DNA of 64,000 nt from Parasphingorhabdus sp. (GTDB taxonomy: Bacteria; Pseudomonadota; Alphaproteobacteria; Sphingomonadales; Sphingomonadaceae): NCBI GenBank assembly GCA_030373505.1, contig JAUCYS010000008.1, positions 62,001-126,000 of the forward strand. The letters run 5' to 3'. The stretch's first letter is position 1, and each line of letters starts with the position of its first letter. A model generated the notes under the pieces. It was not told the DNA's origin and ran no database searches. It saw nothing but the letters and a program-made list of their open reading frames with translations. Of this stretch, positions 12,070 to 37,920 are shown piece by piece. Both the position numbers and the translations under genes were made by a program.

Positions 12070-12114
12070 TCGCAGTTGTCGTGAGCGGCCAAATTCACGG
12101 ATAGCTGCTGGTTC

Positions 12115-12137: not shown

Positions 12138-12231
12138 TGTCTTGTGCTCGCGCACCCGTTGGCAAGGTCCATGCAACCGAATAGGAATCGCAGTTCGATA
12201 TCCCTGATAAAAAGCAAGAGGTAGGCAAGCC

Positions 12232-13394: not shown

Positions 13395-13509
13395 GTGGAA
13401 GGCGGAGTTGACTCGGATGCGCTTGGCCTCGCCCGCGCATCATTGAAGGCTACATACATAATATATGTTTGACGGTTGAAAGCCGTTTGTCGGCAGGAAG
13501 AGATAATTG

Positions 13510-14688: not shown

Positions 14689-14703
14689 GGAAAGAACAGC
14701 AAG

Positions 14704-15468: not shown

Positions 15469-15553
15469 CTGATGCGGCCCTTCAGAAAATGCATAAGAGG
15501 GGCTGTACGCTGGCGCTCAATCTTTACGGGCAACTAGTCTGCAAGGAGGCTTT

Positions 15554-17799: not shown

Positions 17800-17820
17800 A
17801 CGCACTGGAACGAAAAGGAA

Positions 17821-17852
17821 AAGACCCGGCGGTAGGGATACCGCCGGGTCTT
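17821..17852. terminator. Bidirectional intrinsic terminator
   Basis: AAGACCCGGCGGTA (17821-17834) and TACCGCCGGGTCTT (17839-17852) form a perfect 14-bp stem with a GGGA loop. T-rich tracts follow in both directions (TTTCTGTT on plus; TTTTCCTTTT on minus). It separates the plus-strand ACAD pair from the minus-strand reductase gene ending at 17880. Confidence 0.93.
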
Positions 17853-17879
17853 TCTGTTGCATTATCCGCGCGATCGGGC

Positions 17880-18869
17880 TCAGATTTCGAGCGCAACCCC
17901 GCCAAAGGGCCTGGCCGTCGCCATATAGTCAAGCGCGGCCGGTGCTTGGTCAAAGGGAAAGCTGCGGTCGAACAGGGGCTTGATCTTGCCCGCGTCGGCC
18001 AGTTCGGTGAACACGGTCCATGCATCGGCCCATTCTTCGGGTGTGCATGTATAGACACCATAGCCCTGAATGCTGCCACGGAAGAGGATCAGGTCCGCCA
18101 GCGTGATCGTCGATTGCCGACCGGCGGCAAAGCCCAGTGCGATGATCTTGCTGTATCGCTTGATGCATTTGGCCGTTTCGGCGAGAATCTGCCCGCCCAG
18201 TGAGTCGATGACGATATCGACGCCTTCTCCGCCATTGAGGGCATGCACGCCTTCAACCATCGATTGTTTGGACATGTCCACGACATTTTCAAAGCCGGCG
18301 GCGCGGGCCTGTTCGGCTTTTGCCGTCGAGCTGGTCGTACCGATGACATTGGCGGCACCCAGCGCACGAGCGAGCTGGAAAGCAGCATTGCCCACCGAGC
18401 CACCAATGCCGGGCGCCAGCACCGTTTTTCCCGCGGCAAAGCCGGCCTCCATCAAGGCCCGATAGGCGGTCGGATAGGCGACCGAGGCCTGTGCCGCAGC
18501 GCCATCCGGAACGGAGTCCGGAATTTTCCAGGCATGATCTTCTTCCACCGCGCAATATTCCGCCCAGCTTCCCGGCCGCATGAAGCCATAGGGGAAGGCG
18601 CCGAACATTACCCGGTCACCAGCCTTCAGCCGGCTCGACGGGCCTGCGTCATCGACAATACCAGCGCCCTGGTTGCCGGGAATCAGGGGCAGGCTGCAAG
18701 GCGGGAAATTCGCTTCGTTCTCGTCATTGATGATCGCCACGTCGAACGGGATAACGCCCGGTGCTGTCATTTTGACGAGGATTTCCGTGCCAGAACGGAC
18801 CGGCTTGTCCACTTCGACTGATTTCAGAGCCTGCGAACCAGACTGAGTTTCAATTAACCAAGCGCGCAT
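17880..18869 (-). CDS. Medium-chain NAD(P)H oxidoreductase (quinone-oxidoreductase-like, zinc-free)
   Basis: 329 residues of the MDR superfamily. An N-terminal GroES-like domain (VKMTAPGVIPFDVAIIND, then LIPGNQGAGIV) is followed by a Rossmann domain with APGIGGSVGNAAFQLA, the AxxGxxG loop of quinone oxidoreductases. Zinc-ligand Cys/His motifs are absent, so it is a reductase-type MDR (quinone or enone/enoyl reductase). AAAGGA lies upstream of the ATG. It is the last gene of the eight-gene minus-strand arm downstream of the LysR locus, 33 bases after the CoA ligase. Saturation of an activated double bond is a reasonable but unproven role. Confidence 0.85.
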   Translation of the reverse strand: MRAWLIETQSGSQALKSVEVDKPVRSGTEILVKMTAPGVIPFDVAIINDENEANFPPCSLPLIPGNQGAGIVDDAGPSSRLKAGDRVMFGAFPYGFMRPGSWAEYCAVEEDHAWKIPDSVPDGAAAQASVAYPTAYRALMEAGFAAGKTVLAPGIGGSVGNAAFQLARALGAANVIGTTSSTAKAEQARAAGFENVVDMSKQSMVEGVHALNGGEGVDIVIDSLGGQILAETAKCIKRYSKIIALGFAAGRQSTITLADLILFRGSIQGYGVYTCTPEEWADAWTVFTELADAGKIKPLFDRSFPFDQAPAALDYMATARPFGGVALEI

Positions 18870-18902
18870 AGTTTTTCCTTTGATATTGTGTAATTTGAAG
18901 CG

Positions 18903-20534
18903 TTATTTGCGACGGCGGACCTGTATTCCCGCTGCTTCTCGATCCCAGGTTAGGGGAGTCACGCCTTCATCTCTCAGCTGGTATTTGAGCACCTTTCCCG
19001 TCGGGTTCTTCGGCAGGCTGTCCCGGAACTCGACATAGCGTGGCACTGCGAAATGCGGCAGGTTATCCAAACTCCAGATACACAGTTCCTGCTCGGTAAC
19101 GCGCGCATTTTCCCGCAAGACTACGGTTACCTTTATATCATCTTCGCCGGTCTGCAGGCCTACGGCATGGACGGCGATTTCGGCGATAGCATGGTGGGCG
19201 CTGAAGGCCCGTTCGACCTCGAAGCTGGAGACATTTTCTCCACGCGAGCGCATATAGTCCTTCGCCCGGTCGGCAAAATAGAGATAGCCGTCCATCATCT
19301 TGCCCAGATCGCCGGTATGCATCCACATGTTTTTCCAGACGGCTGCGGTCGCTTCCGGTCGCTTCCAATAGCCTTCAAACATGACATTCGCTTCTCGCGG
19401 GCGGAAAACGATCTGGCCAACCGTGCCATCGGCCACGGGTTGATCATTCTCGTCGAAGATCATTATTTCATATTCATCGAGCGGCCGGCCTGCGCAGGTT
19501 TCAGGCGCCTCCTGATCATAGGGAATGCCGGTCATGCGGATGGCCTCGGTTTGACCGTAAGACCAGCTTCCGACGATCTCTACGCCGAAACGCTCTTTCC
19601 AGATCCTGCGATCCTCGGGTGTGATCGGCATGCCGTAGATCATTTTGAGTTTGCCGTGATAGCGTTTGGCTGCCTCGCAATCTGGAGCCTGCGCTACCAG
19701 AGTGAAGATCGAAGCCATAAGCATGGCTGCGACGGCACCCGACTGTTCGATGTCGTCCCAAAAGCGCGTGACGGAAAAATGGCTGGCTATCGCAATGCGC
19801 GACCCGTCTTCCATTACGGACAGCAGATTGGATAGGGCCGCCGCATGGAACAGCGGAAGCGGCGTAAAAAGTGTCTGGCCCTCCTCGAGCAAAGTCAGTC
19901 GACGGTTGATTCGGCCGACCGCCGCAAGATAATTGTGCGAGATCATGCAGCCCTTTGAAGGGCCGGTGGTGCCCGAGGTATAAAGAAGGGCGGCGAGATC
20001 ACCCGGCTCTACGACGACGGGCAGCGCTGAAGTATCGGAACCGCGAAACTCGTCCAGAGGATGGATAGGAATGCTGCAAATCGGCAGTGGCTCCGCCGAG
20101 CGACAGAGTATCAACTGCACGCACGGAATATTGTCCGCAATATGCGTGAAGCGCTCCAGATAATGCTCGTCGCATATGACTATCTTGGCTTCCGCGTCGG
20201 TGGTCTGATGCTTCAGAAAATCGCCGCGATAGGCGGTGTTGATCGGAACCCATATCGCACCGAGCTTGTTTGCCGCAAACCAGCATATGACCATATCGAT
20301 ACTTGTGTCGAACAAGGTAACGACGCATTCGCCCTTGCTTATTCCGAGCGCTTTCAGCTCCCGTGCCATCGCGTTGGAGCGCTGCTCGATGTCGCTGTAG
20401 GTTACTGCTTCCCCGTCGATCACCAGAAATTCCCGGTTGGGGTAGGCTTTTGCCGCTCTTGCCAGAAGATGTACAACCGTATCGCGGATACCGGGCTTGA
20501 AACCCGAAGTCTGTGGTAAGCTGCTCACGGTCAT
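18903..20534 (-). CDS. AMP-dependent acyl-CoA synthetase (CaiC-like)
   Basis: 543-residue ANL enzyme: LLYTSGTTGPSKGCMISH P-loop, YGQTEAIRM, MHTGDLGKM hinge, RAKDYMRSRGENVSSFEVE, and NPTGKVLKYQLR with the C-terminal catalytic lysine. The overall pattern is close to the crotonobetaine/carnitine-CoA ligase-like branch, which in bacteria covers many carboxylic acids. The start ATG at 20534 overlaps the EthD gene stop as ATGA, so translation is coupled. Within the arm it presumably activates a product of the Rieske/alcohol dehydrogenase steps. Bile-acid-CoA ligase (BaiB) belongs to the same superfamily, but I cannot assign that specificity. Confidence 0.92.
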   Translation of the reverse strand: MTVSSLPQTSGFKPGIRDTVVHLLARAAKAYPNREFLVIDGEAVTYSDIEQRSNAMARELKALGISKGECVVTLFDTSIDMVICWFAANKLGAIWVPINTAYRGDFLKHQTTDAEAKIVICDEHYLERFTHIADNIPCVQLILCRSAEPLPICSIPIHPLDEFRGSDTSALPVVVEPGDLAALLYTSGTTGPSKGCMISHNYLAAVGRINRRLTLLEEGQTLFTPLPLFHAAALSNLLSVMEDGSRIAIASHFSVTRFWDDIEQSGAVAAMLMASIFTLVAQAPDCEAAKRYHGKLKMIYGMPITPEDRRIWKERFGVEIVGSWSYGQTEAIRMTGIPYDQEAPETCAGRPLDEYEIMIFDENDQPVADGTVGQIVFRPREANVMFEGYWKRPEATAAVWKNMWMHTGDLGKMMDGYLYFADRAKDYMRSRGENVSSFEVERAFSAHHAIAEIAVHAVGLQTGEDDIKVTVVLRENARVTEQELCIWSLDNLPHFAVPRYVEFRDSLPKNPTGKVLKYQLRDEGVTPLTWDREAAGIQVRRRK

Positions 20535-20917
20535 CCCTGTCCGAAGCCAGTGTTGACCACTTCAACCATGATCATCACGGTCTTGTCGCGTTCCAGGAAT
20601 CTCAGTTCATCCTCTACCAGGATCGGATTGATTTCGGGGTCGTTGAATATCCGGGTCATTTCATCGACCGCAGCCTGGTCTGGAACATGCATTTCGGTGA
20701 TGCAGTCATAGCCGATGTCATAGGGTTCGGGTTCGGTGCCCGGGGGAATTTCGCTCGGGTTGAGCAAGGCAAAGGTCGGGTAATTGCGTATATAGTCAGT
20801 GAGCAGATGGCCGATATATTTCTTGGCCAGAACGACATGGCTGCTTTCATAATGTTGACGAAATTGTTCGGGTGTCGTGCCGGCCTTGCGCTTTAGGAAA
20901 TATATAATTTTGATCAT
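20531..20917 (-). CDS. EthD-domain protein (dimeric alpha+beta barrel)
   Basis: 128 residues: MIKIIYFLKRKAGTTPEQFR, HYESSHVVLAKKYIGHLLT and a C-terminal WxxE-like region with VDEMTRIFNDPEI. This is the EthD fold, a ferredoxin-like dimeric barrel first seen near the ETBE monooxygenase EthB and common in sphingomonad catabolic operons. Known relatives act as small decarboxylases, cyclases or oxygenases, so the function here is unknown. The catalytic-type His in HYESSHVV is conserved. ATG 20917 has GGAGAG upstream; the stop overlaps the CoA ligase start. A paralogue lies at 24902, at the other end of the same arm. Confidence 0.85.
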   Translation of the reverse strand: MIKIIYFLKRKAGTTPEQFRQHYESSHVVLAKKYIGHLLTDYIRNYPTFALLNPSEIPPGTEPEPYDIGYDCITEMHVPDQAAVDEMTRIFNDPEINPILVEDELRFLERDKTVMIMVEVVNTGFGQG

Positions 20918-20954
20918 TTTTGTCTCTCCTGATAATTATTATTGTTACCGCCTG

Positions 20955-21350
20955 TCAGTGGAGTGCGGCCAGAATAGCCGCGGTGTCGCCGTAAACGGGA
21001 TGGATCAGCTTGATCTTTCCATCAATCACATGTGCGGCTTCTGCGAGCGGGAAGGTCACGGATTTGCCGGTTTTTCGGACGGTGACGGCAAAGCTTCCGT
21101 ACGCGATCACCCATTCGCCGGTCGTCGCAAAAATATCCGGCTCAAAACTGAAGGCGCTAAAGGTTTCCATCACCTGCATCAGTGCAGTGCGAATCTCGTT
21201 CGGGCCTGTGAAACGCCCGCCATAGGGAAGGGAATCCGCTTCCAGCAAAACGCCATCTTCCGCAAAGAAGGACAAGAAGCCTTCCAGATCCCCCCTATTT
21301 AGCATGGCCTCATAGGATGCCTTTACGACGTCGACAGGATTGCTGCTCAA
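20955..21350 (-). CDS. SnoaL-like (NTF2-fold) protein
   Basis: 131 residues if the TTG at 21350 is used (AAGGA 7 bases upstream); an open frame extends to 21443 but has no better site. Sequence features: VVKASYEAMLNRGDLEGFLSF, FAEDGVLLEADSLPYG, FTGPNEIRTALMQVM and IHPVYGDTAAILAALH. These fit the SnoaL/limonene-epoxide-hydrolase-like alpha+beta barrel. The fold binds small hydrophobic molecules and includes ketosteroid isomerase and bile acid 7alpha-dehydratase. It lies 37 bases before the EthD gene and 165 bases after the Rieske gene in the same arm, so it may isomerise or dehydrate a hydroxylated product. Confidence 0.82.
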   Translation of the reverse strand: MSSNPVDVVKASYEAMLNRGDLEGFLSFFAEDGVLLEADSLPYGGRFTGPNEIRTALMQVMETFSAFSFEPDIFATTGEWVIAYGSFAVTVRKTGKSVTFPLAEAAHVIDGKIKLIHPVYGDTAAILAALH

Positions 21351-21463
21351 GACACATTCCTTTTCGCGGTTGATGTTAAAAAAACGAGGCTCTATCAAAG
21401 AGCAATGTGGGTGATTTTGCCAGTCTGGCGAGCACCGCTTCAATCAGAGTCAAGTTTTGCTGC

Positions 21464-21499
21464 GGTGGGGGCCGCGAACTCGGGTCGCGTGCTCCCACC
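21464..21499 (-). other. GC-rich hairpin downstream of the first Rieske gene
   Basis: GGTGGG at 21464-21469 pairs with CCCACC at 21494-21499, and CGCGA (21473-21477) with TCGCG (21485-21489), giving a near-continuous 13-14 bp stem with one bulge. It begins 17 bases after the Rieske stop on the minus strand. No U tract follows, so it is more likely an mRNA-stabilising or attenuating structure than a full terminator. Confidence 0.5.
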
Positions 21500-21515
21500 A
21501 CATTGTTGAAAAGGG

Positions 21516-22949
21516 CTAAATCTCTATGCCCATCGCCTTCATATATGCTTCATGGAAATGGCGGATGCGGACCTCCTGTTCGGAAGCGAGAATGGGGCGA
21601 GCGGCGCCGGGATCAGCAGCCTTCATGCCCCGGTGCACCTCTTCCATGTTTTCCATATCTTCATCCATAATAAAGCCGACCTGCCCGGTTTCGGGGAAAT
21701 CGCGGCCCTGCTGATCGAAATCGATCCATACCGTTTCCGCTTTCTCCGGCCGTTTGGCACCCTTGGCGAGCGGCCGCAGCCAACGAATTTCCATAATGCA
21801 TTCGTCCGGACTGTCGCCCAGCGGCGTGAAATTATACCACCAGGACAGACCTTCGCCCCACCATGGGAAATATGCCGGGAACATGAACCATTGGTGCATG
21901 TCGACGAGATAGGAGATGGACCGTCCGGTATAATCGACACCGGATTGGGTCTTGTGCACTTCTATCGTCTTTTCTGCGGCATAGGCGCGGGCTTCCGCCA
22001 GCGTCTCGCCAACGCCTTCAGGTGCGATGGGAAGGCCATATGTGTTGCAGAAAAGGTCGAGCGACACGCGAGGCGAGATATCGTTCTTGACCCAGCCATC
22101 CGGGATGAGAGCCGGTGTAATAAGCCGGCTTACCGAAGCTTTGCCATCATCCCAGCAATCGGTCTGCGTGTAGGTGGAACCAAAAATGGGCATGCCGCTG
22201 GGATGAGTGGTCAGGACATGATAGCCTTCAAGGAACGCTTCCAAACCGGATTTCCAGTTGATCTTGACCTTCTTCTTGATGTGAGCGGCCGTATAGCGAT
22301 CTTCCTGCGGACAATCCTCGAAATGTTTGGGCATAACGCCCATCGCGTCCTTCAGCGGAGCCGCATCCAAATCGGGATTGATGAAAACATTGCCACCCCA
22401 TGTGTCACACTGGACGGGACGCAGGCTGTAATTTTTTGGCGTTGCCTTCTCGAACTCCTCCCAGCGCGGAACCCAGGTCAGCTTGCCATTGAGGTCATAG
22501 CTCCAGGCATGAAAGGGACACTGGATCATGTCGCCGGATTCGGGCTTGTCACCGCACAGACGGCGTCCGCGATGGCGGCAGCTGTTCCAGAACGCCTTGA
22601 ACTCATTCTCCCCCGACCGGACGATCATGAATGACAAGGGACCCACTTCGTAGGAGACGCGATCACCGACATTGGGAATGTCTTCTGCGCGACAGGCAAC
22701 CTGCCACGTTTTCTTCCAGATCTTCTCGATCTCGTCGGGGACATATTTGGGGTCGAGATAATATTCGTAGGGAAGCGGCTGGTTCTTTGGCTGATGGGTG
22801 CCGCGTTCTGCAGCGGTCCAGGGAACCTCCTCGCCGGCCTGCTTAATATATTCGACATATTGCGGCATGTCGGAAAACTGGGTGCCGTGCACGGCGCGGA
22901 CATAGCTCTTGTTGCCATATTTCGTGATGTCGGGAGTAAGTTCGTTCAT
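21516..22949 (-). CDS. Rieske non-heme iron oxygenase, alpha subunit
   Basis: 477 residues. The Rieske 2Fe-2S site is Cys124-x-His126 and Cys144-x2-His147. The mononuclear iron site is His244 and His249 in EAFLEGYHVLTTH, with Asp431 (DMENMEEVHRG) as the likely third ligand. All ligands are present, so an active mono- or dioxygenase is expected. Length and the FPWWGEGLSWWYNF segment place it among the larger alpha subunits, not the KshA/ferredoxin-less 380-residue type. No small beta subunit, ferredoxin or reductase gene is nearby, so electron-transfer partners must come from elsewhere. AAAGGTG precedes the ATG. Adjacent to a Zn-alcohol dehydrogenase that could oxidise the new hydroxyl. Confidence 0.93.
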   Translation of the reverse strand: MNELTPDITKYGNKSYVRAVHGTQFSDMPQYVEYIKQAGEEVPWTAAERGTHQPKNQPLPYEYYLDPKYVPDEIEKIWKKTWQVACRAEDIPNVGDRVSYEVGPLSFMIVRSGENEFKAFWNSCRHRGRRLCGDKPESGDMIQCPFHAWSYDLNGKLTWVPRWEEFEKATPKNYSLRPVQCDTWGGNVFINPDLDAAPLKDAMGVMPKHFEDCPQEDRYTAAHIKKKVKINWKSGLEAFLEGYHVLTTHPSGMPIFGSTYTQTDCWDDGKASVSRLITPALIPDGWVKNDISPRVSLDLFCNTYGLPIAPEGVGETLAEARAYAAEKTIEVHKTQSGVDYTGRSISYLVDMHQWFMFPAYFPWWGEGLSWWYNFTPLGDSPDECIMEIRWLRPLAKGAKRPEKAETVWIDFDQQGRDFPETGQVGFIMDEDMENMEEVHRGMKAADPGAARPILASEQEVRIRHFHEAYMKAMGIEI

Positions 22950-23013
22950 GATTGCACCTTTGAATTAAAGTGATGTGACAAGCAAAGTGACTGGTTTTTA
23001 GTGCTGCGCATGT

Positions 23014-24114
23014 TCAGAACATGACAACGGTTCGGATACCCTCCCCACGCTCCATTGCGTCGAGTCCGGAGGAAATCTCGTCGAGCGAAATTTTGTTGGT
23101 GATCAGGCTTTCGAGATCGAACTCCCGCTCCATCAAGCGATCAACGAGCTTGGGTATTCCGGAACGGCACTTCGCGCCGCCGATGGACGACCCCTTGAGA
23201 GTTTTGCCAAAGAGCAGGTCGGTCGGGGGGATAGAGAGCATTTCACCATCTGGGGCCAGTCCCACGACCATGCACACGCCCCACGCAAAATGCGTGGCGG
23301 CGAAAGCTTGCTGGATAGTGGAAATCGCGCCGACGCATTCGAATACATAGTCGGCCCCGGCGCCGGTGATTTCAACGATATGCTGCCCCAGCTCCTTGTC
23401 GAGCGTCTTCGGGTTTACGAACTCGGTTGCCCCCATCTTGCGGGCCAGAGCTTCTTTCCCAGGATTGGTATCAACAGCGATGATCCTGCTCGCGCCGCAG
23501 ATGCGCGCTCCCTGGATCACACTGAGGCCAATGCCGCCGAGGCCGATGACCGCCACCGTCGAACCGGGCTCCACTTGCGCCTCGATAATCGCCGCACCAA
23601 GGCCGGTGGTGGCGCCGCAGCCGAGATAAGCAATCTGTTCAAACGGCGCATCTTTGCGCACTTTTGCAAGGCTGATTTCGCGATAGACGCCAAAATTGGA
23701 GAAGGTACCGAGATCGTGAAAGGAATGGAGCCGCGTACCGTTATATTCCGCTCTTGTCTTGAGGTCATGGCCCGTAAACATTTCTGCACATAAATTCGTT
23801 TTGGGGGAGTGGCAGAAATCACAATCGCCGCATTCCGGGCACATATAGGGGATCACGTGATCGCCGACTTCCAGATCGGTCACGCCGGGACCAACTTCGA
23901 CCACCACACCGCCAGCTTCATGGCCGGGGATCCCCGGGAAGTTAACCAGCGAGCCAACCTGGCCGGCCAGCGCGGAAAGGTCTGTATGGCAAAGGCCCGT
24001 GGCCTTGATCTCGACCAGAACTTCACCCTCGCCCGGCGCGTCGACCTTGACCTTGTCAATGATAAGCGGAGTGCCGGGTGCCATGGCGATCGCGGCACGT
24101 GATGTTACTGACAT
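23014..24114 (-). CDS. Zinc-dependent alcohol dehydrogenase (MDR)
   Basis: 366 residues. Catalytic zinc ligands are Cys42 (GLCHTD), His65 with Glu66 (GHE) and Cys165 (GCGATTG). The structural zinc loop has Cys95, Cys98, Cys101 and Cys109. The Rossmann motif is GLGGIGLSVIQGA. This is the class III-like/NDMA-type MDR alcohol dehydrogenase group, oxidising primary or secondary alcohols with NAD. A GAGGAC site precedes the ATG at 24114. Sitting 64 bases upstream of the Rieske gene in the same direction, it is well placed to oxidise the hydroxylated product to an aldehyde or ketone before CoA activation by the ligase at 18903. Confidence 0.93.
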   Translation of the reverse strand: MSVTSRAAIAMAPGTPLIIDKVKVDAPGEGEVLVEIKATGLCHTDLSALAGQVGSLVNFPGIPGHEAGGVVVEVGPGVTDLEVGDHVIPYMCPECGDCDFCHSPKTNLCAEMFTGHDLKTRAEYNGTRLHSFHDLGTFSNFGVYREISLAKVRKDAPFEQIAYLGCGATTGLGAAIIEAQVEPGSTVAVIGLGGIGLSVIQGARICGASRIIAVDTNPGKEALARKMGATEFVNPKTLDKELGQHIVEITGAGADYVFECVGAISTIQQAFAATHFAWGVCMVVGLAPDGEMLSIPPTDLLFGKTLKGSSIGGAKCRSGIPKLVDRLMEREFDLESLITNKISLDEISSGLDAMERGEGIRTVVMF

Positions 24115-24287
24115 ATTCTGTCCTCGTCGATTGTGCTTACAGGACCAATCGCTCGATTTCGAGATTTGGTCGCCAAGCGCCTTTCCTAATATTCAAACAG
24201 TATCACTCCATCGGGAGGGGTGGGAAGGTCGCTTTTGTCCACAGTTCGCTAGCAAATTGCCGGATAGTGCAATCGAGAGGCGTGAAT

Positions 24288-24752
24288 TCATCTGGAGACA
24301 AAGTCGACCCTCAGGCGCGTCAGCCTCAACGTCGCAATTCGCCAGTTGCCGGCGATCTTTCGGTAAGTTTCGTGATAATGGCCGTAGCCAACGATTTCCC
24401 TGGTCGGTGAGTCGGGCAGCAACAGATGGTCGGTCATGGCCCAGATTCCGCTGGCGGTTTCGGGGCTGTCGACGGTGATTTCCGGCATATACCCCTGATG
24501 GACAGAGACAAGAGGTGTCAAACCCGCACGAATATAGTCCTTCACCGCAGCCAGGCCGCTGATCAGGTCCTTGTCGCCATCTTCTCCGGCAGGTTCTTCA
24601 GAAGTATCGAGAGCGCCGCGGTAATCGCAGATGACGTCCTGCGTGAACACGCTGTCCAGAAGATCCCATAGCTTCGTGTCCATAGCCCGGAAATACAGCC
24701 CTTTGAGCTTCCGAATTTCCTCGCTGGCAACGAGAGCTTCCATTTCATTCAT
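24288..24752 (-). CDS. SnoaL-like protein (SnoaL_4 type)
   Basis: 154 residues: EEIRKLKGLYFRAMDTKLWD, FTQDVICDYRGALD, VHQGYMPEITV, and GHYHETYRKIAGNWRIATLRLTRL. This is the NTF2-like SnoaL_4 pattern shared with many dehydratase/isomerase-like proteins, including the family containing BaiE-type bile acid dehydratase. The conserved Tyr, Asp and His positions of that pocket appear to be present (YFRAMD, HQGYMPE), but I cannot align them rigorously. The start at 24752 has a weak ribosome site; an ATG at 24743 is an alternative. It is the second gene of the arm, between EthD and the Zn-alcohol dehydrogenase. Confidence 0.83.
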   Translation of the reverse strand: MNEMEALVASEEIRKLKGLYFRAMDTKLWDLLDSVFTQDVICDYRGALDTSEEPAGEDGDKDLISGLAAVKDYIRAGLTPLVSVHQGYMPEITVDSPETASGIWAMTDHLLLPDSPTREIVGYGHYHETYRKIAGNWRIATLRLTRLRVDFVSR

Positions 24753-24901
24753 CAGTGCAAATCTCGACTATATTGCACAATCGGGCCAGTGAACCAGCGG
24801 CCGGCATCGGATGCGGGAGATACGGCAACGGGTCCAGTATCCCCAAGTGCTGCCGTCCGCCTAATAACGACATGGTGGCCGGGATTTTGGGGACAGGAAG
24901 G

Positions 24902-25270
24902 TCACGGCAATGTGGTGCCGTTGTCATATTCCTCGACCATCAAAAGACGGGTCGCTAGGCGGTCCTGAAACTTTTCCTCATCCTCCAGAATGATCTTGTT
25001 ATTCTCCGGCAGGTTGATGATGCGGCTCATCTCCTCGACGGCCGCCTCGTCCTTCAGCCATATCTCTGTAACCGCATCATAGCTGTCTTCGACCGCGTTA
25101 TCCTCCGGCTGATATTCCATCAGGGAAATGGGATAGTTCCGCACATATTTGGTCCACAGGTGGCCCAGCAAGCGCTTGCCGATCTCGGCATGGCTTGTTT
25201 CATAATGGTGGATGAAATCCTCGCGGCTCATGCCGGGCTTTTTTTTGATCAGAATAACGATCTTGGGCAT
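24902..25270 (-). CDS. EthD-domain protein (dimeric alpha+beta barrel)
   Basis: 122 residues, similar in layout to the protein at 20531: MPKIVILIKKKPGMSREDFI, HHYETSHAEIGKRLLGHLWT, YVRNYPISL, EIWLKDEAAVEEMSRIINLP. The His-x2-E-x-SHA block is conserved between the two. A strong AAGGAG site precedes the ATG at 25270. It is the first gene of the minus-strand arm, transcribed away from LysR, so it probably tops an eight-gene operon (25270 to 17880). Its biochemical role is unknown; two paralogues in one operon suggest a heterodimer or two related small-molecule reactions. Confidence 0.86.
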   Translation of the reverse strand: MPKIVILIKKKPGMSREDFIHHYETSHAEIGKRLLGHLWTKYVRNYPISLMEYQPEDNAVEDSYDAVTEIWLKDEAAVEEMSRIINLPENNKIILEDEEKFQDRLATRLLMVEEYDNGTTLP

Positions 25271-25474
25271 CGTAAGGCTCCTTGTGATCCGTCAATGAGA
25301 ACATATTATGGTGCGCGCTGTGAAGCACCTATCCGCCCGGGCCGGCTGTCTTGCAGCTGAGGGCAAGCACTATCTCCAGTTGCATCATGCGCTTCGCGCC
25401 CTGTGCCCTAAATCGCCGTGCAAAAGTGGATTCCGTCAGTTGCCAATTGCGGGCGGTTGCCGGATAACGGGGCC

Positions 25475-26344
25475 ATGACGGACCGGCTACCATCGCTGCG
25501 AGGCATCGAGACATTCGTGTGTGTTGCGGAGCTTCTAAACCTGCGCGTGGCTTCCGAGCGGCTGAACGTTTCGGTGTCCGCGATCAGCCATCGTATCCAG
25601 GCGCTGGAGGAGGAACTGGGAATCCTGTTATTTGATCGCAGTGGCGGCCGCATGCAGCTGACCACCGAAGGTTCAGATTTTCTGGAGCAGCTGCGACCCG
25701 GTCTCGCTTTCCTTCAGAAAGCAACGAGTGCCTTGCGCAAACATGCGGCGCGCCCCTTGCTGCGCATTTCTGCCCCACCGGTCATTCATGACCAGTGGCT
25801 GCTGGGCGTGCTGGAAGGGTTTCAGGAAGACAATCCCGGCGTCCGCTTCGAGCTCCTGACCAGCGGTCGCCGCCGTGCAGCCGGCTGCGATATCAGCATC
25901 GTGCCCGTCTCGCCCTCCACGATACGGAATGGCGCGGAGCCGCTGCTCGACCTCAGCATTGTGCCCATCTGCAGTCCCGAGTTTCTGGCCAGGCATCCGA
26001 TTGCCAGTTACGAGGATCTTCTATCGCTGCCGCTGCTGGAAGCGCTGCCTAAATTTGGCGCCTGGAACATGTGGTTCGAGGCCGCAGGTTTCCGGGGCGA
26101 TTGCCCAGCCCCGGCCGTCACCGTCGACAATCCGATACTCCTCTATCAGGCAACAACCCGTGGACTGGGAGTGGCGCTGGGCGTGCAATCGCTGATCGGT
26201 GATTATCTGCGATCCGGTCAGTTGGTCGCACCACTGGACATTATATGCAACATGCCGCCCCCGCTCGGCATCATCGTGCACGAAGGCGCCAATGTCCGGC
26301 TCGCAAAGTCGTTCGTTGCGATGATGAAGCGCAAATTTCATTGA
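25475..26344 (+). CDS. LysR-family transcriptional regulator
   Basis: 289 residues from ATG 25475 (the frame is open to a GTG at 25418, but the conserved N-terminus starts here). The winged helix-turn-helix is at about 23-42 (RVASERLNVSVSAISHRIQA), followed by the linker helix and a two-lobe periplasmic-binding-like effector domain (RISAPPVIHDQWLLGVLEGF). GcvA-like members have this DLSIVPICSPEFLARHP pattern. It lies between two divergent catabolic arms and is the natural local regulator of both. A 17-bp inverted repeat directly after its stop codon, and a second copy before the amidohydrolase gene, fit the T-N11-A LysR site. The effector is unknown. Confidence 0.93.
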   Translation: MTDRLPSLRGIETFVCVAELLNLRVASERLNVSVSAISHRIQALEEELGILLFDRSGGRMQLTTEGSDFLEQLRPGLAFLQKATSALRKHAARPLLRISAPPVIHDQWLLGVLEGFQEDNPGVRFELLTSGRRRAAGCDISIVPVSPSTIRNGAEPLLDLSIVPICSPEFLARHPIASYEDLLSLPLLEALPKFGAWNMWFEAAGFRGDCPAPAVTVDNPILLYQATTRGLGVALGVQSLIGDYLRSGQLVAPLDIICNMPPPLGIIVHEGANVRLAKSFVAMMKRKFH

Positions 26345-26347
26345 AGC

Positions 26348-26364
26348 GTTCAAATTATTTCAAC
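26348..26364 (+). promoter_or_regulatory. Candidate regulator box GTTCAA-N5-TTCAAC
   Basis: GTTCAAATTATTTCAAC resembles the perfect inverted repeat at 29488-29504 with one mismatch between its arms. It is preceded by an overlapping TTGAA-GCG-TTCAA (26341-26353). It lies 97 bases before the DUF2889 start. Both elements contain T-N11-A as in LysR sites, and both are followed by CAACxGTG and an A-rich CCAAAA segment. Confidence 0.45.
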
Positions 26365-26460
26365 AGTGTGGCCAAAATCCGAAAGACGCCTGGCGCTGGC
26401 AGCCGTCTAGGGGAGGAGCAATGATGGGCTTGCGCCCTAACCCTTCTTGTGGAGCTATCG

Positions 26461-27495
26461 ATGTCAAACCATGCTGCTGCAGCAAATCGGACCGCCGGTC
26501 CGCCGCCACCGCGAAGACCCAATTCGTTACGGCGATCCAGTTCGCTCCAGTCGATCTGGCCTGCCGGAGCGACCGGTCCGCATCATCTGGTCGGGCGGGC
26601 AAGAGATCTGTTTACCGGACAGGGGACGGACGCGCCCGAAACCTTGGGCTCGGATTGGATCGAGACGATACTCGCCCCCGACCGGCGACTGCTTACCCTG
26701 AGCGCCAGTCGCCAGTCCGATACGCTTGCAGATTTTGCCGGACTGACTCCGGGCGGAGACCTGCGACGGGCCATTGCCGACAGGATACCGGAAGAAAGGG
26801 AGGGCGGCACCTTGCTTTGTCGCCTGCTGGAAGACATGGCGGGTGCGGTCTTCATGGCCAGTTCGGCATGGTATGACTGGGACGCAGAAGGCCTTGACGG
26901 ATATTTCCGGAAGGTCGGACTGAGTTCCGTCAGAGAACGTCCGGTTACCGGATTATGCCTGAGCTATGTTCCGGGTTCGGAAGCGATTACAGCAGACGGC
27001 CGGATGGACGAAAATAATGCGGATCACCCGGTTGCAATGTCGCCCGTGTCGGATACGGACCCGTTTGCGTGGCATGACCTTGTTGAAATTGATGCACCCA
27101 ATCACTGGCGACTGCGCTGGACGGATCTCTGGGTCGAAGACGGGATTGTGCATGTCGACGCCTGGTTTCAGGACAGTTCCGTCATTCGCGGACGCGATGA
27201 CATCAGGACCATCTTTCACGAATATGGCCTGCGAGCACGCCTTGATCCTGCGGAAATGACACTGATCGCCATTGATGTAGAGGCGCGTGTGCTGCCGTTC
27301 GGAACCTGCCAGGCGGCACCGGCCACTGCCAATATTCTGGTTGGGCGTCCAGCCTTGGAGTTCCGCGATTCGGTGGGCCAGGCTCTAGGCGGCACGCAGG
27401 GTTGTACGCATCTCAATGACATGCTTCGTGCCCTGCAGGATGTTTCGGCGATGTTTGGTATATTCAGCAATGCAACCGCTTCTCGTGCAGGCTAG
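26461..27495 (+). CDS. DUF2889-domain protein
   Basis: 344 residues. The N-terminal block RRPNSLRRSSSLQSIWPAGA then LVGRARDLFTG, and the C-terminal GCTHLNDMLRAL, are the hallmarks of DUF2889, a family of unknown function often found in sphingomonad and actinobacterial lipid/steroid catabolic clusters. Start ATG 26461 has GGAG about 8 bases upstream; a GTG at 26449 is possible. No signal peptide or membrane segment is visible, so it is probably cytoplasmic. It opens the plus-strand arm behind LysR, followed by the hotdog hydratase. The second DUF2889 gene at 50002 also follows an acyl-CoA enzyme. Confidence 0.82.
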   Translation: MSNHAAAANRTAGPPPPRRPNSLRRSSSLQSIWPAGATGPHHLVGRARDLFTGQGTDAPETLGSDWIETILAPDRRLLTLSASRQSDTLADFAGLTPGGDLRRAIADRIPEEREGGTLLCRLLEDMAGAVFMASSAWYDWDAEGLDGYFRKVGLSSVRERPVTGLCLSYVPGSEAITADGRMDENNADHPVAMSPVSDTDPFAWHDLVEIDAPNHWRLRWTDLWVEDGIVHVDAWFQDSSVIRGRDDIRTIFHEYGLRARLDPAEMTLIAIDVEARVLPFGTCQAAPATANILVGRPALEFRDSVGQALGGTQGCTHLNDMLRALQDVSAMFGIFSNATASRAG

Positions 27496-27574
27496 GCAGT
27501 CTGCATCCTGAGGCCATAGCAGCCCGCTAATAGACCATGGGCAGATATAGAGAGACAAAGCAAATGACGAGCAG

Positions 27575-27760
27575 ATGCTGGTGACGTTAAGCGGTGAGGC
27601 GGAATGGCGCGCCTGCTCAAGGCGCCTGAAACAACGGCCGCCTGCTTTCGGGGCGCAGCAATATCGGGCCGCGCGGATGGACATGGTTCGCGCGGCATCC
27701 GCCGCACAGAATACAGCCGATTTTCTAAGGCAGAAACTAGCAGGGGAGAACGCCTCGTGA
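27575..27760 (+). CDS. Small hypothetical protein, overlapping the hydratase start
   Basis: 61 residues, MLVTLSGEAEWRACSRRLKQ to DFLRQKLAGENAS. The sequence is Ala/Arg/Gln rich and predicted mostly helical by eye. Its TGA stop overlaps the GTG start of the hydratase gene (GTGA at 27757-27760), the layout of a translationally coupled gene. It has no clear ribosome site and no family I recognise. It could be a real small protein, a remnant of a larger gene's C-terminus, or chance. It fills most of the 262-base gap between DUF2889 and the hydratase. Confidence 0.3.
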   Translation: MLVTLSGEAEWRACSRRLKQRPPAFGAQQYRAARMDMVRAASAAQNTADFLRQKLAGENAS

Positions 27761-28839
27761 TTGACCATAATTCCTATCCGTCCCTCAACTGGGAGGATGT
27801 CAGCGAAGGCGATATCCTTCCCCCGTTCGAATATGAGTTGAGCCTCGTCCGGCTTGTCGCCTTTGTACGCGCGACCGGCTTGTACGATTATGTGCATCAT
27901 GATGCCAAATATGCGCAAGCCGTGGGGGCCGAGGATGCCTTCATTTCAACCACCCAGGTCGGCGGTCTGTTCACGCGTCTGGTGACCGACTGGTCCGGCC
28001 CGGCCAGCCTGGTCCGGCGCATCACCTTTCGCATGACCGCCCAATGTCTCCGTGACGACATGCTCACGGTAAGCGGCAAGGTGGGGCGGAAATATCGCGG
28101 AGAGGACGGCAGCTATCTGGTCGATATCGTCGATCTCAATATAGCGACTCAATCCACCGCCAGCGCTGTAAATGCAACCGCGACCATCGAGATGCCGTCC
28201 GCTGACGGGCAGATGCCTGCCATATTCCGTGAGCGCTCGCCTGGCGAAGAACCCGCTGCGAACGATGATATGCCTGATTTCGCCCGGGCCATGATGGGCA
28301 TAGAGCGTGACGGGAACTGGGAGCCCCGGGATCCGCTGTTGCCGAGTGATGTTCACCTTTGGTGCGAGGCGCTGGAAGACTGGAACCCGCTCTATTGGGA
28401 TAGAGAATATGCCGCCGCTTCCCCGTTCGGCACGCTGATCTCCCCGCCCACAGGACTGTTTTTCGGCGCAGATTCGTCGCTCAATGTCGGCCTTGGCTAC
28501 CGCAAGCCCGGTGCCGACGTTCCCGAGCCGATCAAGCGCAATCTGCATGGTATGGAATTGATGACGGCGCTGCGCGAAGAAATCATCAAGGGCGGGGTGC
28601 CTTTTCCGCCCCCAGATTGCCCGGAGGCGGTAGTGACTCAGGCCGACTATCATTTTTATACACCGCTGCGCATCGGCGAAACTTTGCGTACCAAGCAGCG
28701 GCTCGTCTCGTGCAGTCCGCTTCGCAAAACCCGGCTTGGCGAAGGCTATTTCGTTACCGGCGAGAATCTCTTGTTCAACCAGCGGGACGAGCTTGTCCGG
28801 ACCGTTGCGATGAGCCTTTTCTGTTACCGGGCGGCATGA
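27757..28839 (+). CDS. Double-hotdog MaoC-like hydratase
   Basis: 360 residues from a GTG with GGGGAG 8 bases upstream. Two tandem hotdog domains are visible. Domain 1 (about 10-150) has GLYDYVHHDAKYAQAVG, resembling the R-hydratase acid/His segment (Asp44, His47, His48, Asp49). Domain 2 (about 210-355) has EDWNPLYWDREYAAASPFG, the D-x-N-P-L-H hydratase motif with His replaced by Tyr, and ends RTVAMSLFCYR. One catalytic and one degenerate half is typical of eukaryotic-type hydratase 2 and of ChsH1/ChsH2-type steroid enoyl-CoA hydratases. The expected reaction is hydration of a bulky 2-enoyl-CoA. Confidence 0.85.
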   Translation: MIDHNSYPSLNWEDVSEGDILPPFEYELSLVRLVAFVRATGLYDYVHHDAKYAQAVGAEDAFISTTQVGGLFTRLVTDWSGPASLVRRITFRMTAQCLRDDMLTVSGKVGRKYRGEDGSYLVDIVDLNIATQSTASAVNATATIEMPSADGQMPAIFRERSPGEEPAANDDMPDFARAMMGIERDGNWEPRDPLLPSDVHLWCEALEDWNPLYWDREYAAASPFGTLISPPTGLFFGADSSLNVGLGYRKPGADVPEPIKRNLHGMELMTALREEIIKGGVPFPPPDCPEAVVTQADYHFYTPLRIGETLRTKQRLVSCSPLRKTRLGEGYFVTGENLLFNQRDELVRTVAMSLFCYRAA

Positions 28840-28921
28840 GTTTGGATCGTCCCGTGGAAACAGGCGGCCGGTAACCCCGAGAGTTGGGCGATCTGACAAT
28901 TTATGCGGATGGAGGGATGCT

Positions 28922-29461
28922 ATGGAACTGGATGTAAAGGCCGTGCAACGGCTTCTGGACAAGGAAGCGATTCGCGACGCTTCCCTGCGCTACACACGGG
29001 GCATTGACCGGCATGACGAGGAACTGATGGCTTCCGCCTATCATGCCGATGCGACAGACGATCATGGCGATTATATCGGTGATCCGGCGGGTTTTGCCGA
29101 CTACGCCAACACGGTCCACGGCCAGAACTGGGTGCAGCATCAGCATTATGTGAGCAATCAGGTGATCGACCTTGATGGCGACACCGCGCATAGCGAAATG
29201 TATTTTTTTGCCGTTCTCAAACGGCCGGACGGTACATGCGATCTCGTCGGCGGTCGTTATGTTGATCGCTTCGAGCGGCGCGGGAATCTGTGGGCCATTG
29301 CCGACCGCGCTTGCCTGGTCGAATGGAATGCCGAGACAGGCCCGAAAGGCGCGGCCCTCGACCCATCTGTTTTTCTCTCGGGAAGCTGGGACAAAAGCGA
29401 CATATCCTATCAGCGGCCTTTGCGGGTCGATCGGCCTCACCGTAATCTGCTGGATGGTTGA
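28922..29461 (+). CDS. SnoaL-like protein (SnoaL_4 type)
   Basis: 179 residues: VQRLLDKEAIRDASLRYTRG, IDRHDEELMASAYHADATDDHG, HQHYVSNQVIDLDGDTAHSE, and RYVDRFERRGNLWAIADRAC. This is a clear SnoaL_4 NTF2-like barrel with the conserved IDRHDEELM and HYVSN segments seen in dehydratase-like members. GGAGGG precedes the ATG at 28922. A C-terminal 35-residue tail (about 145-179) extends past the domain. It lies in the plus-strand arm between the hotdog hydratase and the amidohydrolase. It is the third of three complete SnoaL-like proteins around LysR, which makes enzymatic roles in successive dehydration or isomerisation steps likely. Confidence 0.86.
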   Translation: MELDVKAVQRLLDKEAIRDASLRYTRGIDRHDEELMASAYHADATDDHGDYIGDPAGFADYANTVHGQNWVQHQHYVSNQVIDLDGDTAHSEMYFFAVLKRPDGTCDLVGGRYVDRFERRGNLWAIADRACLVEWNAETGPKGAALDPSVFLSGSWDKSDISYQRPLRVDRPHRNLLDG

Positions 29462-29487
29462 GCCTCTGCGTCAGGCAGGCGCTGCCC

Positions 29488-29504
29488 GTTGAAAATAATT
29501 CAAC
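29488..29504 (+). promoter_or_regulatory. Candidate LysR box GTTGAA-N5-TTCAAC
   Basis: GTTGAAAATAATTCAAC is a perfect 6-bp inverted repeat with a 5-base spacer and contains T-N11-A. It lies 76 bases before the amidohydrolase start. It shares arms and downstream context with the element at 26348-26364, which is the main reason to think both are bound by the nearby LysR protein. Confidence 0.5.
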
Positions 29505-29579
29505 GGTGCCAAAAAACTTCGCCATTGGCGCGGAAGTGCAGCTGGTCGATATCAAATGTGGATGGAGATGGAGAATATC

Positions 29580-30824
29580 ATGGACACGCAAGCACCCGCT
29601 ACCGTTAACAAGGAAAATCTGTGGCGTCTCGAAACGCCGAAGATTGAAGGATGGACGCGTGACGTCCGTCCAGGTCCCAACAAGCATTTCATGGTCTCTG
29701 TCGACACACATTTGTCGCCGCCGGTGAAGCTGTTCCATGAGCGGATGGATAAGAAATTCCATGACTTGCTGCCGAAGATCGAAAAGCGCGACGATGGCGA
29801 GCGTTATATCATCATGCCCGGTGCGCGTCCCGAACGACTGGTCAACTTCGCCTTTGAAGGAGAGGATCTGCTTCGTTCCAAGTCCGGTGCCGATCTCCTG
29901 CAAAAAGACCTCGACGGCGCCGTCATCACCGGTCTCCAGCGGATCGCAGATCAGGAGCTGGATGGCGTTGATGCAGAAATCATCTTCCCCAACGGCGCGG
30001 CCCTGTTGATGTGGTCTATCAACAATAATGAAATGGTGGCGGCCCAGGCCGCGGTCTGGAACGACTGGGCGATGGAGGTCTGCGGACCCTTTATCGACCA
30101 GTGCAGCCCGGCCGCGGCGCTGTGCACCGCTGACATTGATCTGGCAATAGCCGAAATTGAGCGCGTCGCGAAGCTCGGTTATCGCGTGCTGACCCTGCCA
30201 TGCAAACCTGTTTTCGGGCCCCATGACGTCAGCGATATCAATTATAACCTGCCGATTTTCGATCCCATGTGGGCCGCCATTCAGGATCATGATCTGACGA
30301 TCACCTACCATGTTTCCACCGGCCGTGACCCCCGCGCAGCGCGCGGCAACGGCGGTGCGATCATTAACTATGTCTGCCACTCGCTTTCACCAACGATTGA
30401 GCCGATCGTCAATATGTGTGCATCGGGCGTGTTCGAGCGCTTCCCCAAATTGCGGGCCTCGACGATTGAGGCGGACGCGGGCTGGGTGCCGTGGATGCTG
30501 CAGAAGATGGATGAATCCTATCTCAAGCATCATTTCTGGGTGCGGCCAAAACTGAAAAATCTGCCGAGTGAATATTACCGCAGCAATTGTTTCGCTTCCT
30601 TTGGCGAAGACCAGGCGGCGATCGCCTTGGTTGAGCAATTCGGTCTTGAGGACAATTTCATGTGGGCCAATGACTACCCCCATCATGAAGGAAGCTGGCC
30701 GCATTCCGCAGAGGCGCTGTACCGCACGCTTGGCAACGATCTGCGCGAGGATACGCGCGCGAAGCTCGTCGGTCTGAATGCGGCAAGAGCCTTCAACATT
30801 CCGGTGCCCGAGAAATATCGCTGA
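29580..30824 (+). CDS. Amidohydrolase-2 (ACMSD-like) metal-dependent hydrolase/decarboxylase
   Basis: 414 residues. The N-terminal metal site reads SVDTHLSPP (Asp-x-His in place of the His-x-His of ACMSD). TYHVSTG supplies a barrel His and MWANDYPHHEG a C-terminal Asp-x-x-His, giving a PF04909 TIM barrel. Members hydrolyse or decarboxylate aromatic and cyclic carboxylates, and some cleave C-C bonds in 1,3-dicarbonyl rings. GGAGA lies before the ATG at 29580; the in-frame ATGs at 29556 and 29568 are less well placed. It is the last gene of the plus-strand arm, 205 bases before a bidirectional terminator. A ring-opening or decarboxylation step for the Rieske arm product is plausible. Confidence 0.87.
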   Translation: MDTQAPATVNKENLWRLETPKIEGWTRDVRPGPNKHFMVSVDTHLSPPVKLFHERMDKKFHDLLPKIEKRDDGERYIIMPGARPERLVNFAFEGEDLLRSKSGADLLQKDLDGAVITGLQRIADQELDGVDAEIIFPNGAALLMWSINNNEMVAAQAAVWNDWAMEVCGPFIDQCSPAAALCTADIDLAIAEIERVAKLGYRVLTLPCKPVFGPHDVSDINYNLPIFDPMWAAIQDHDLTITYHVSTGRDPRAARGNGGAIINYVCHSLSPTIEPIVNMCASGVFERFPKLRASTIEADAGWVPWMLQKMDESYLKHHFWVRPKLKNLPSEYYRSNCFASFGEDQAAIALVEQFGLEDNFMWANDYPHHEGSWPHSAEALYRTLGNDLREDTRAKLVGLNAARAFNIPVPEKYR

Positions 30825-31028: not shown

Positions 31029-31059
31029 AGAAGGGCGGCAATCTGCTTGCCGCCCTTCT
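31029..31059. terminator. Bidirectional intrinsic terminator
   Basis: AGAAGGGCGGCAA (31029-31041) and TTGCCGCCCTTCT (31047-31059) form a perfect 13-bp stem with a TCTGC loop. TCATTG follows on plus and GTTTTC on minus. It separates the convergent amidohydrolase and TonB receptor genes; the receptor stop is at 31083. The rest of 30825-31082 shows no gene. Confidence 0.9.
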
Positions 31060-33551: not shown

Positions 33552-33861
33552 TATTAATCCTCCCAAATTATATTTTGTCGCTCCTCGGCGACGCGGTCCG
33601 TTAAGCGAACTGCAGGTCGCACTATACAGCATCGGTTTGCTCTACATTGCAGGAGCACTTGTCGTGGGCGGTAAAATGAAGGGGGGTGGATGAGCGAAAG
33701 CGATCAACCCGTCGATGCTGGTCTTGAGCCGGGCGAAGTCGCATCAAGGAATCGCGGTTTTCGCCTTGAAGGGGGGCATCTTTTCATCCAGGGCGAGAAA
33801 AGGCGAGCAATCGGTGGCGCCGTAAAATTACGCGGCCTCGTGCGGGTTTCTGCGGTTCATT
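33552..33861. other. 310-base gap upstream of the TonB receptor
   Basis: It holds the leader and presumably the promoter of the minus-strand receptor gene. A TATAGT near 33623-33628 (minus strand) could be a -10 box, but no matching -35 is visible. A plus-strand frame at 33690-33887 with a purine-rich AAGGGGGG before its ATG has no recognisable product and runs into the VOC gene, so I do not call it. No terminator was seen for the VOC operon here. Confidence 0.4.
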
Positions 33862-35935: not shown

Positions 35936-35938
35936 CGC

Positions 35939-37899: not shown

Positions 37900-37920
37900 A
37901 TCTTGCTTGCGTTTCGGGCT

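Follow-up and report, generated by a model that had tools for sequence, protein, structure and literature searches.

A rare, patchily distributed gene supercluster in Parasphingorhabdus and its relatives with a predicted role in the breakdown of a bulky polycyclic acid

Introduction

The closest described counterpart of the genes considered here is the Delta-4,6 bile-salt pathway of Sphingomonadaceae, known from Sphingobium Chol11 and Caenibius tardaugens. Chol11 has homologues of KshA and HsaC (PMC8399759, Table 1), and the side-chain route is called “largely unknown” in a 2025 paper (PMC12175502). Small barrel proteins serve as hydroxysteroid dehydratases in such systems: BaiE, Hsh2 and SteC are of the NTF2/SnoaL type (PMC12175502, PMC13101464), with SteC of Comamonas acting as a 12-beta-dehydratase (PMC13101464), while in Sphingobium Chol11 the 7-beta-hydroxysteroid dehydratase Hsh3 carries an EthD domain (PMC12175502). 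Here we examine an island of 13 genes (positions 17880-30824) in a window of Parasphingorhabdus sp. DNA (assembly GCA_030373505.1, contig JAUCYS010000008.1), the window being the whole 64-kb stretch analysed. The island combines a LysR-type regulator with Rieske, EthD, SnoaL, CoA ligase, hydratase, DUF2889 and PF04909 genes, the last of which is predicted to encode an amidohydrolase-related dinuclear oxygenase (ARO). We think it rather probable that these 13 genes form a single regulated portion of a rare catabolic supercluster, extending over some 49 kb of the window, for a bulky polycyclic carboxylic acid of steroid-like or terpenoid-like character. Every enzyme family of the set is known, with the exception of DUF2889. 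No description of the gene set was recognised among the open-licence papers listed, in which DUF2889 is mentioned twice, and two AEM 2021 papers on Chol11, which lay outside that search, may hold one.

Gene order and extent of the supercluster

The window belongs to a 165-kb contig of an assembly of 3.13 Mb in 28 contigs that is 88% complete (G000). Genomes scanned with the island's Rieske protein yielded seven related loci (L018-L024), in which the Rieske homologues are 75-92% identical; according to the source records six come from sphingomonads and one from a metagenome-assembled genome titled Pseudomonadota only. The relatives named most often below are G098, the closest found, G101 (N. 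rosa), G102 (Blastomonas) and G103 (Novosphingobium hassiacum). Family membership, the conservation of metal ligands and motifs, synteny and co-occurrence are read directly from these sequences.

The LysR gene (25475-26344, plus strand), whose start is backed by an L020 protein aligning from residue 20 of the longer frame, lies between an eight-gene minus-strand arm and a four-gene plus-strand arm, just as the original prediction had it; all 13 genes are open frames of the expected Pfam families. Read away from LysR, the minus arm comprises EthD1, a single EthD domain (24902-25270; 82-95% identical in 4/7 loci), SnoaL1 (24288-24752), a zinc-dependent, class III-like alcohol dehydrogenase (Zn-ADH, 23014-24114; a close ortholog in 2/7), the Rieske oxygenase alpha subunit (21516-22949), SnoaL2 of the NTF2-like SnoaL_2/SnoaL families (20955-21443; 65-79%, adjoining the Rieske gene in 6/7), EthD2, also a single domain and a putative dehydratase or isomerase (20531-20917; 43% identical to EthD1), an AMP-forming acyl-CoA ligase (18903-20534; 71-83% in 5/7) and an enone/quinone-type reductase of the medium-chain dehydrogenase/reductase (MDR) family (17880-18869), whose orthologs (84-93%) stand beside the CoA ligase or EthD2 in six of the seven loci. 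The plus arm consists of the DUF2889-domain gene, to which no function is assigned (26449-27495), a fused double-hotdog (MaoC) enoyl-CoA hydratase (27757-28839; present in 6/7), SnoaL3 of the SnoaL_4 family (28922-29461; 67-84% in 4/7) and the PF04909 gene (29556-30824). The hydratase probably starts near 27757 rather than 27604, because in five of the six loci with this gene the alignment begins no earlier than residues 53-56; in L018, the sixth, it begins at residue 2. A later start for SnoaL2 was dropped, as three of six relatives align from residues 2-6 and three from 25-32, and no conserved LysR box is proposed, the six-row intergenic alignment being too diverged to name one.

In five of the seven loci (L018, L020-L023) LysR and DUF2889 are transcribed divergently from the Rieske arm, where SnoaL2, EthD2, the CoA ligase and the MDR gene follow in order. 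L019 has no match to the CoA ligase or to LysR, and in L024 the Rieske gene lies apart from most other island genes.

Conservation does not stop at the ends of the island, and about 49 kb of the window recurs in relatives. The left flank (493-17799) carries short-chain dehydrogenases/reductases (SDRs), an old yellow enzyme (OYE)/FAD enzyme (2104-4077), KstD (6641-8362), acyl-CoA dehydrogenases (ACADs), enoyl-CoA hydratases of the crotonase type (ECHs), a CoA ligase, an OYE and a thiolase. The order of ACADs, thiolase, OYE, CoA ligase, ECH, ACAD, KstD, SDRs and the OYE/FAD gene is the same in G102 and G103, and in G100 as far as KstD, where the contig ends; in G101 the block keeps its order but lies approximately 33 kb away from the MDR gene, and the G098 contig stops at the first left-flank ACAD. 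To the right, a TonB-dependent receptor (31083-33632, minus strand), a candidate for substrate uptake, adjoins the ARO gene in G098 too and has homologues of 70-81% identity in G098, G100, G102 and G103, and of 40% in G101. Beyond it (34829-49937) lie a second Rieske gene (39259-40767) and genes for an FAD oxidase, AraC, ACADs, a CoA transferase and an APH kinase; the block around the second Rieske gene (FAD oxidase, AraC, ACAD, CoA transferase and APH/ACAD pair) recurs in relatives. The second Rieske protein of the window is 44% identical to the first; a second one, at 44-46%, accompanies the first in 4/7 relatives, and there are close orthologs (74-92%) in G098, G100, G102 and G103, not in G101. 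The APH-type kinase gene adjoins an acyl-CoA dehydrogenase gene at 47410-49937, a pair kept in G098, G102, G103, G170 and plasmid pBB1 of Cupriavidus necator N-1, and presumably resembling the pairs of 4-hydroxyacyl-CoA catabolism. Further right, at 126-165 kb of the contig, no homologue of the window genes occurs among the matches listed.

These data bear on the proposal that the island is a self-contained LysR module, closed by strong bidirectional terminators and ending in an amidohydrolase that cleaves a ring or C-C bond. The gene order agrees with it, as do two terminator-like hairpins, at 17819-17854 (a 16-pair stem between the convergent ACAD and MDR genes) and 31029-31059 (13 pairs, again at a convergent gene pair), which are the longest stems of the scanned region, and mononuclear PF04909 decarboxylases match the modelled fold of the PF04909 protein as well. 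The scan, however, placed both hairpins on the minus strand alone, and its 10 terminator-like sites across 16.5-33 kb are not above chance (15.8 +/- 3.9 in shuffled control sequence); synteny crosses both of them, with the cluster continuing on either side in relatives; the PF04909 protein has the ligands of an oxygenase; and its gene lies on another contig in 3/7 relatives. A self-contained module of this kind is thus very improbable, and the island is better read as a part of the larger supercluster.

Co-occurrence and distribution

Joint conservation of the two arms was examined in 397 genomes drawn from the family, the genome of the window among them, with up to four Rieske candidates scored per genome and the Rieske and ARO draws taken as the same genomes, as their listed handles agree. 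At E<=1e-100 the Rieske protein occurs in nine genomes and the ARO in eight, all eight within the nine, in eight genera (hypergeometric test 6e-16, with the window's own genome included and kinship ignored). Identities in the eight are 57-100% for the ARO and 47-100% for the Rieske protein, the lower values including G048 and G294 (Rieske 47-48%, PF04909 protein 57%), and the ninth Rieske genome, G405, reaches just 41%. At an identity of at least 70% the two sets are identical, comprising six of the 397 genomes: G000, G042, G169, G170, G353 and G431, of which G353, G431 and G042 are, judged by coordinates, G102, G103 and G104 respectively. The hydratase, at E<=1e-60, occurs in 4/397, all within the nine Rieske genomes. 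In the seven genomes of the related loci an ARO ortholog (75-92%) is on the Rieske contig in three, on another contig in three, N. hassiacum among them, and absent from one (G099, with a best match of 31-35%). The expectation that both arms are conserved together is therefore upheld as regards a functional link, seen in their co-occurrence, and not as regards one physical unit. The ARO need not go with the LysR arm: a 57% homologue on pBB1 is accompanied by counterparts of the flanking beta-oxidation genes, while no Rieske, SnoaL or EthD gene is among the matches listed for the 140 kb examined there.

A close DUF2889 protein is missing from all 31 other genomes of the genus, two of which have relatives at 35-37% identity, so the gene set is accessory, and it forms a rare and patchily distributed supercluster. 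Spread by plasmids was considered and rejected, no plasmid record having a Rieske or hydratase homologue of at least 60% identity; for the ARO, the matches listed include one partial homologue above that level, on Tardibacter pHSL2 (74% over 46% of the query; L116:19947-20600), which directly adjoins an IS6 transposase. G169, a genome of 3.0 Mb, stands out by its 23 EthD matches and by four Rieske (46-75%) and four ARO (50-71%) matches at E<=1e-100.

The PF04909 protein as a predicted dinuclear oxygenase

PF04909 proteins such as PtmU3 have been defined as amidohydrolase-related dinuclear oxygenases (PMC10811679), and PtmU3 itself works in diterpenoid biosynthesis and takes CoA-ligated substrates (PMC7782822). 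By sequence, PtmU3 is the best solved relative of the window protein (E 8e-49), followed by DitZ (E 1e-25). An AlphaFold2 model (mean pLDDT 75) gave the same order in Foldseek, with PtmU3 first (E 3e-25), DitZ next, SfbO and AibH1H2 within the top ten, the uncharacterised amidohydrolase 4dzi ranking fourth to sixth and mononuclear decarboxylases lower.

The metal ligands reported for AibH2 are Asp25, His27, His211, Glu265, Asp337 and His340, and an acidic residue two positions past the last His (Glu313 in PtmU3) is reported to be restricted to enzymes with a two-metal centre (PMC7782822). All six ligands and the acid are present in the window protein, as D50, H52, H252, E305, D373, H376 and E378; E378 is conserved throughout the eight closest sequences, and 14 of 15 aligned rows have an acid at this position. 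With the ligand set of a dinuclear oxygenase intact and PtmU3 as nearest relative, the “amidohydrolase” is probably a hydroxylase, and the ring or C-C cleavage first attributed to it is not borne out. By analogy with PtmU3 it would probably act on a CoA ester.

Hydratase, small barrels and DUF2889

The hydratase consists of two unlike MaoC domains in which one has His replaced by Tyr, in the manner of ChsH1 and ChsH2. Its N-terminal half matches ChsH1 (E 6e-11), with which it has an HHD segment in common, with Leu at -5 and Asp at -3; its C-terminal half matches the MaoC domain of the steroid-binding ChsH2 weakly (E 5e-4), and has D-x-N-P-x-Y in 6/6 aligned orthologs, as in ChsH2. The two names are swapped in the table entries 4w78 and 4wnb, and naming here follows PMC11321319, which gives the name ChsH2 to the chain with Tyr in place of the catalytic His. 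In actinobacterial hydratases an unlike, inert partner domain has been tied to bulky steroid substrates, although it is not always needed, and ChsH3, CasD and CasQ have both domains in one chain (PMC11321319). The window protein is, as far as its sequence tells, a ChsH1/ChsH2-like hydratase with both halves fused in one chain.

Among the small barrels, SnoaL1 is related to the bile-acid dehydratase BaiE (E 2.8e-18), and its Y20, D25 and H85 align to a Tyr, an Asp and a His of BaiE that we take to be catalytic; N. rosa has a SnoaL1 homologue of 59% identity in the corresponding place. Since SnoaL and EthD dehydratases are both published, the latter as a precedent and not as homologues, there is little call for the unfamiliar chemistry that had been suggested for these proteins. 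The presence of two EthD genes in one module, thought unusual together with that of three SnoaL genes, does reflect real clustering: both lie within 13 kb, while G000 has three EthD matches in all; G098 has two, both inside the island. On plasmid pNL2 the protein WP_011906962 (L135:8001-8825), whose gene adjoins an FAD_binding_2 gene, is a fusion of EthD to SnoaL_4, which suggests that EthD and SnoaL barrels can act together.

The DUF2889 protein has a GCTHLND motif that is invariant in 10/10 rows. Its AlphaFold2 model (pTM 0.83) found no fold match in a Foldseek search of the PDB at E<=0.001, and the idea of a duplicated domain was abandoned, given this empty Foldseek result and the failure of its halves to match each other in a profile comparison (E 0.68).

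The Rieske oxygenase

The Rieske protein has a Rieske domain and a Ring_hydroxyl_A catalytic domain and is nearest to GbcA/CntA-type enzymes. No beta subunit, ferredoxin or reductase partner was recognised for it among the 13 island genes, none of which matches PF00866 above cut-off, so that the alpha/beta arrangement of DitA/naphthalene-type enzymes was not found. It could be argued that the SnoaL protein beside the Rieske gene is no dehydratase but the missing beta subunit, since the Ring_hydroxyl_B fold is NTF2-like, SnoaL2 adjoins the Rieske gene in 6/7 loci, and SnoaL3 has a weak match to PF00866 (E 0.009, 16.5 bits against a cut-off of 27). SnoaL2, however, matches SnoaL_2/SnoaL and not PF00866, and GbcA/CntA-type enzymes are not known to have a beta subunit; we therefore find a beta-subunit role improbable.

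Gene losses in the window copy

Compared base by base with G098, the window copy skips approximately 1.97 kb at 27597/27621, which in relatives holds an ACAD alpha/beta pair, 0.70 kb at 24814/24901, an SDR gene next to EthD1, as well as 4.9 kb separating the SnoaL3 and ARO genes, at 29453/29488. The last of these may be a gain in G098, because no other relative has that neighbourhood. The ACAD alpha protein is found at 67-100% in all nine other genomes searched and a crotonase at 82-100% in all five (the genome of the query being included in both cases); the best matches in G000 are 50% and 47%, both on contig C20. That part of C20 (112-150 kb) is a further cluster of distant relatives of island genes, to which the 50% ACAD alpha belongs, and another cluster on contig C22 (125-181 kb) has two PF04909 proteins (25%) and a DUF2889 protein (36%).

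The step before the hydratase must accordingly be either supplied from elsewhere, as by the 50% relative on C20, or lost. One could conclude that the window copy is a decaying remnant without a working pathway, given that the ACAD pair, the SDR next to EthD1, one or two crotonase (ECH) genes and, relative to G098 only, the 4.9-kb segment are gone. Against decay, none of the 13 frames is interrupted, their identity to the G098 counterparts is 72-95%, and the breaks fall between genes, which makes a remnant rather unlikely. Assembly collapse may also explain the gaps.

Substrate class and proposed pathway

KstD, which matches a 3-oxosteroid 1-dehydrogenase with E 1e-135, points to a steroid nucleus. 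KshA and HsaC were sought in 10 genomes. The KshA_C domain (PF19298) has no match in G000 (88% complete), G098, G099, G102, G103 or G169, is strong in G100 and G104, and gives marginal partial matches in G101 and G170. With TIGR03213 as proxy for HsaC/TesB-type dioxygenases, scores exceed 240 bits only in G099, G100 and G104 and are at most 91 bits elsewhere, with no match in G000 and none above 70 bits in G098, G102 and G103; such weak matches are uninformative, as the model also rings below cut-off in 5/14 control genomes. Because KshA and HsaC types were not found in several carriers, the island is probably not an ordinary 9,10-seco cluster.

This bears directly on whether the island is simply the missing side-chain module of the Chol11-type Delta-4,6 bile-salt pathway. 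In favour of that view are the BaiE-like SnoaL1, KstD and the OYE/FAD enzyme, the CoA ligase, the MaoC hydratase and the two-part ACAD of relatives, a layout resembling bsd I of C. tardaugens, and the poorly known side-chain route noted above. It is nevertheless unlikely: the KshA and HsaC homologues of Chol11 have no counterpart found in G000, G098, G102 or G103 (for HsaC, above 70 bits), neither EthD1 nor EthD2 is alignable to an Hsh3 homologue, and bsd I is described with a TetR regulator and no LysR is named there. A plain Delta-4,6 bile-salt cluster is consequently kept as a rival only.

Alternatively, the substrate could be a non-steroidal terpenoid or a lignan-type acid, with steroid-like enzymes recruited for their acceptance of bulky polycyclic CoA esters. 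PtmU3, a diterpenoid enzyme, and DitZ as the two best ARO matches would fit, as would the KshA/HsaC-type genes not found in several carriers and the second Rieske gene alongside the first in 4/7 relatives. The strength of the KstD match and the BaiE relative point instead to a steroid nucleus, and no alpha/beta dioxygenase or extradiol enzyme was seen in the island, nor an extradiol type in G000, so we hold this alternative to be doubtful. The abietane route employs an alpha/beta dioxygenase and an extradiol enzyme; a dit-type route of this kind was rejected, since no gene for a beta subunit was recognised in the island and G000 gave no HsaC-type match.

Returning to the favoured reading, a supercluster for a steroid-like or terpenoid-like carboxylic acid, we infer the reactions, their order, the substrate and the regulation of the island as follows. 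The TonB receptor would take up the substrate and the CoA ligase would activate the acid; the Rieske enzyme would then hydroxylate it, with the ARO hydroxylating the CoA ester as for PtmU3, and the Zn-ADH would oxidise the product. The BaiE-like SnoaL1 may remove water from ring hydroxyls, perhaps helped by the remaining SnoaL and EthD proteins, after which the MDR protein would reduce the enone. The ChsH1/ChsH2-like hydratase would hydrate the enoyl side chain, leaving beta-oxidation to the left-flank genes and the 3-keto ring to KstD.

Several observations weigh against this reading. In G000, G098, G102 and G103 the normal C19-steroid route is unlikely, which leaves ring opening unexplained. 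The 13 island genes do not include a small Rieske ferredoxin, the type of neighbour used to identify AROs (PMC10811679). In the N-terminal half of the hydratase the MaoC His/Asp dyad has its Asp displaced by two residues from the usual spacing. The CoA ligase scores 190 bits against the steroid-24-oyl-CoA synthetase model (cut-off 750), and below the cut-off of every NCBIfam model among the best 25 of 105. In N. rosa, EthD1, SnoaL3, Zn-ADH and the second Rieske protein are without match on the contig of the cluster. Finally, EthD1 and EthD2 were rejected as orthologs of Hsh3: neither aligns to WP_011906908 of pNL2, which is 62% identical to Hsh3 (PMC12175502), and because of this the link of EthD to steroid dehydration is one of precedent only, without homology.

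A bolder and decidedly tentative possibility is that the genes encode an undescribed aerobic route of sphingomonads for a polycyclic acid of steroid-like or triterpenoid-like character without KshAB and HsaC. Two beta-less Rieske oxygenases and the ARO would open the rings, EthD and SnoaL proteins would dehydrate, and DUF2889 would be a novel enzyme that cooperates with the hydratase and the two-part ACAD and possibly substitutes for a missing aldolase. If the favoured reading is right, bacterial breakdown of steroids and terpenoids would extend past the 9,10-seco route, a PtmU3-like dinuclear oxygenase that annotation labels an amidohydrolase would gain a catabolic role, and there would be candidates for the sphingomonad side-chain steps that the 2025 paper leaves largely unknown (PMC12175502). 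DUF2889 would also gain a testable setting in the culturable N. hassiacum DSM 14552.

Comparison with known systems

The Delta-4,6 system of Chol11 and C. tardaugens (SclA, Scd4AB, a MaoC hydratase, a monooxygenase, Hsh2 and Hsh3) has with the island in common a CoA ligase, a two-part ACAD (in relatives), a MaoC hydratase, an oxygenase, an NTF2 dehydratase, an EthD protein and sphingomonad hosts. The island differs from it by its LysR, DUF2889, ARO and fused ChsH1/ChsH2-like hydratase genes, by the failure to find KshA and HsaC types in four island genomes and by EthD proteins that are not alignable to the Hsh3 homologue.

For single proteins the comparison is closer. SnoaL1 has in common with the bile-acid 7-alpha-dehydratases BaiE and Hsh2 the SnoaL_4 domain and the Tyr, Asp and His, at modest overall similarity. 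The hydratase, like ChsH1-ChsH2, ChsH3 and CasD, pairs a catalytic-type domain with a Tyr-bearing inert-type one, and does so in one chain as in ChsH3, CasD and CasQ, while differing from ChsH2 in that no DUF35 was found and from the usual dyad in the displaced Asp of its N-terminal half. With PtmU3 (platensimycin biosynthesis), AibH2 and SfbO the ARO shares the PF04909 fold, the six ligands and the extra acid; it is set apart by its catabolic-looking setting and by an N-terminal extension of about 40 residues, modelled with low confidence.

Outside the sphingomonads, the cluster on pBB1 of the betaproteobacterium C. necator N-1 (approximately 386-437 kb; L115, L130) has homologues of KstD, ACAD, thiolase, SDR, ARO and CoA ligase at 40-78% identity and also carries DUF1302, DUF1329 and MMPL genes. 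Unlike the island, it has no Rieske, SnoaL or EthD gene among the matches listed for the 140 kb examined.

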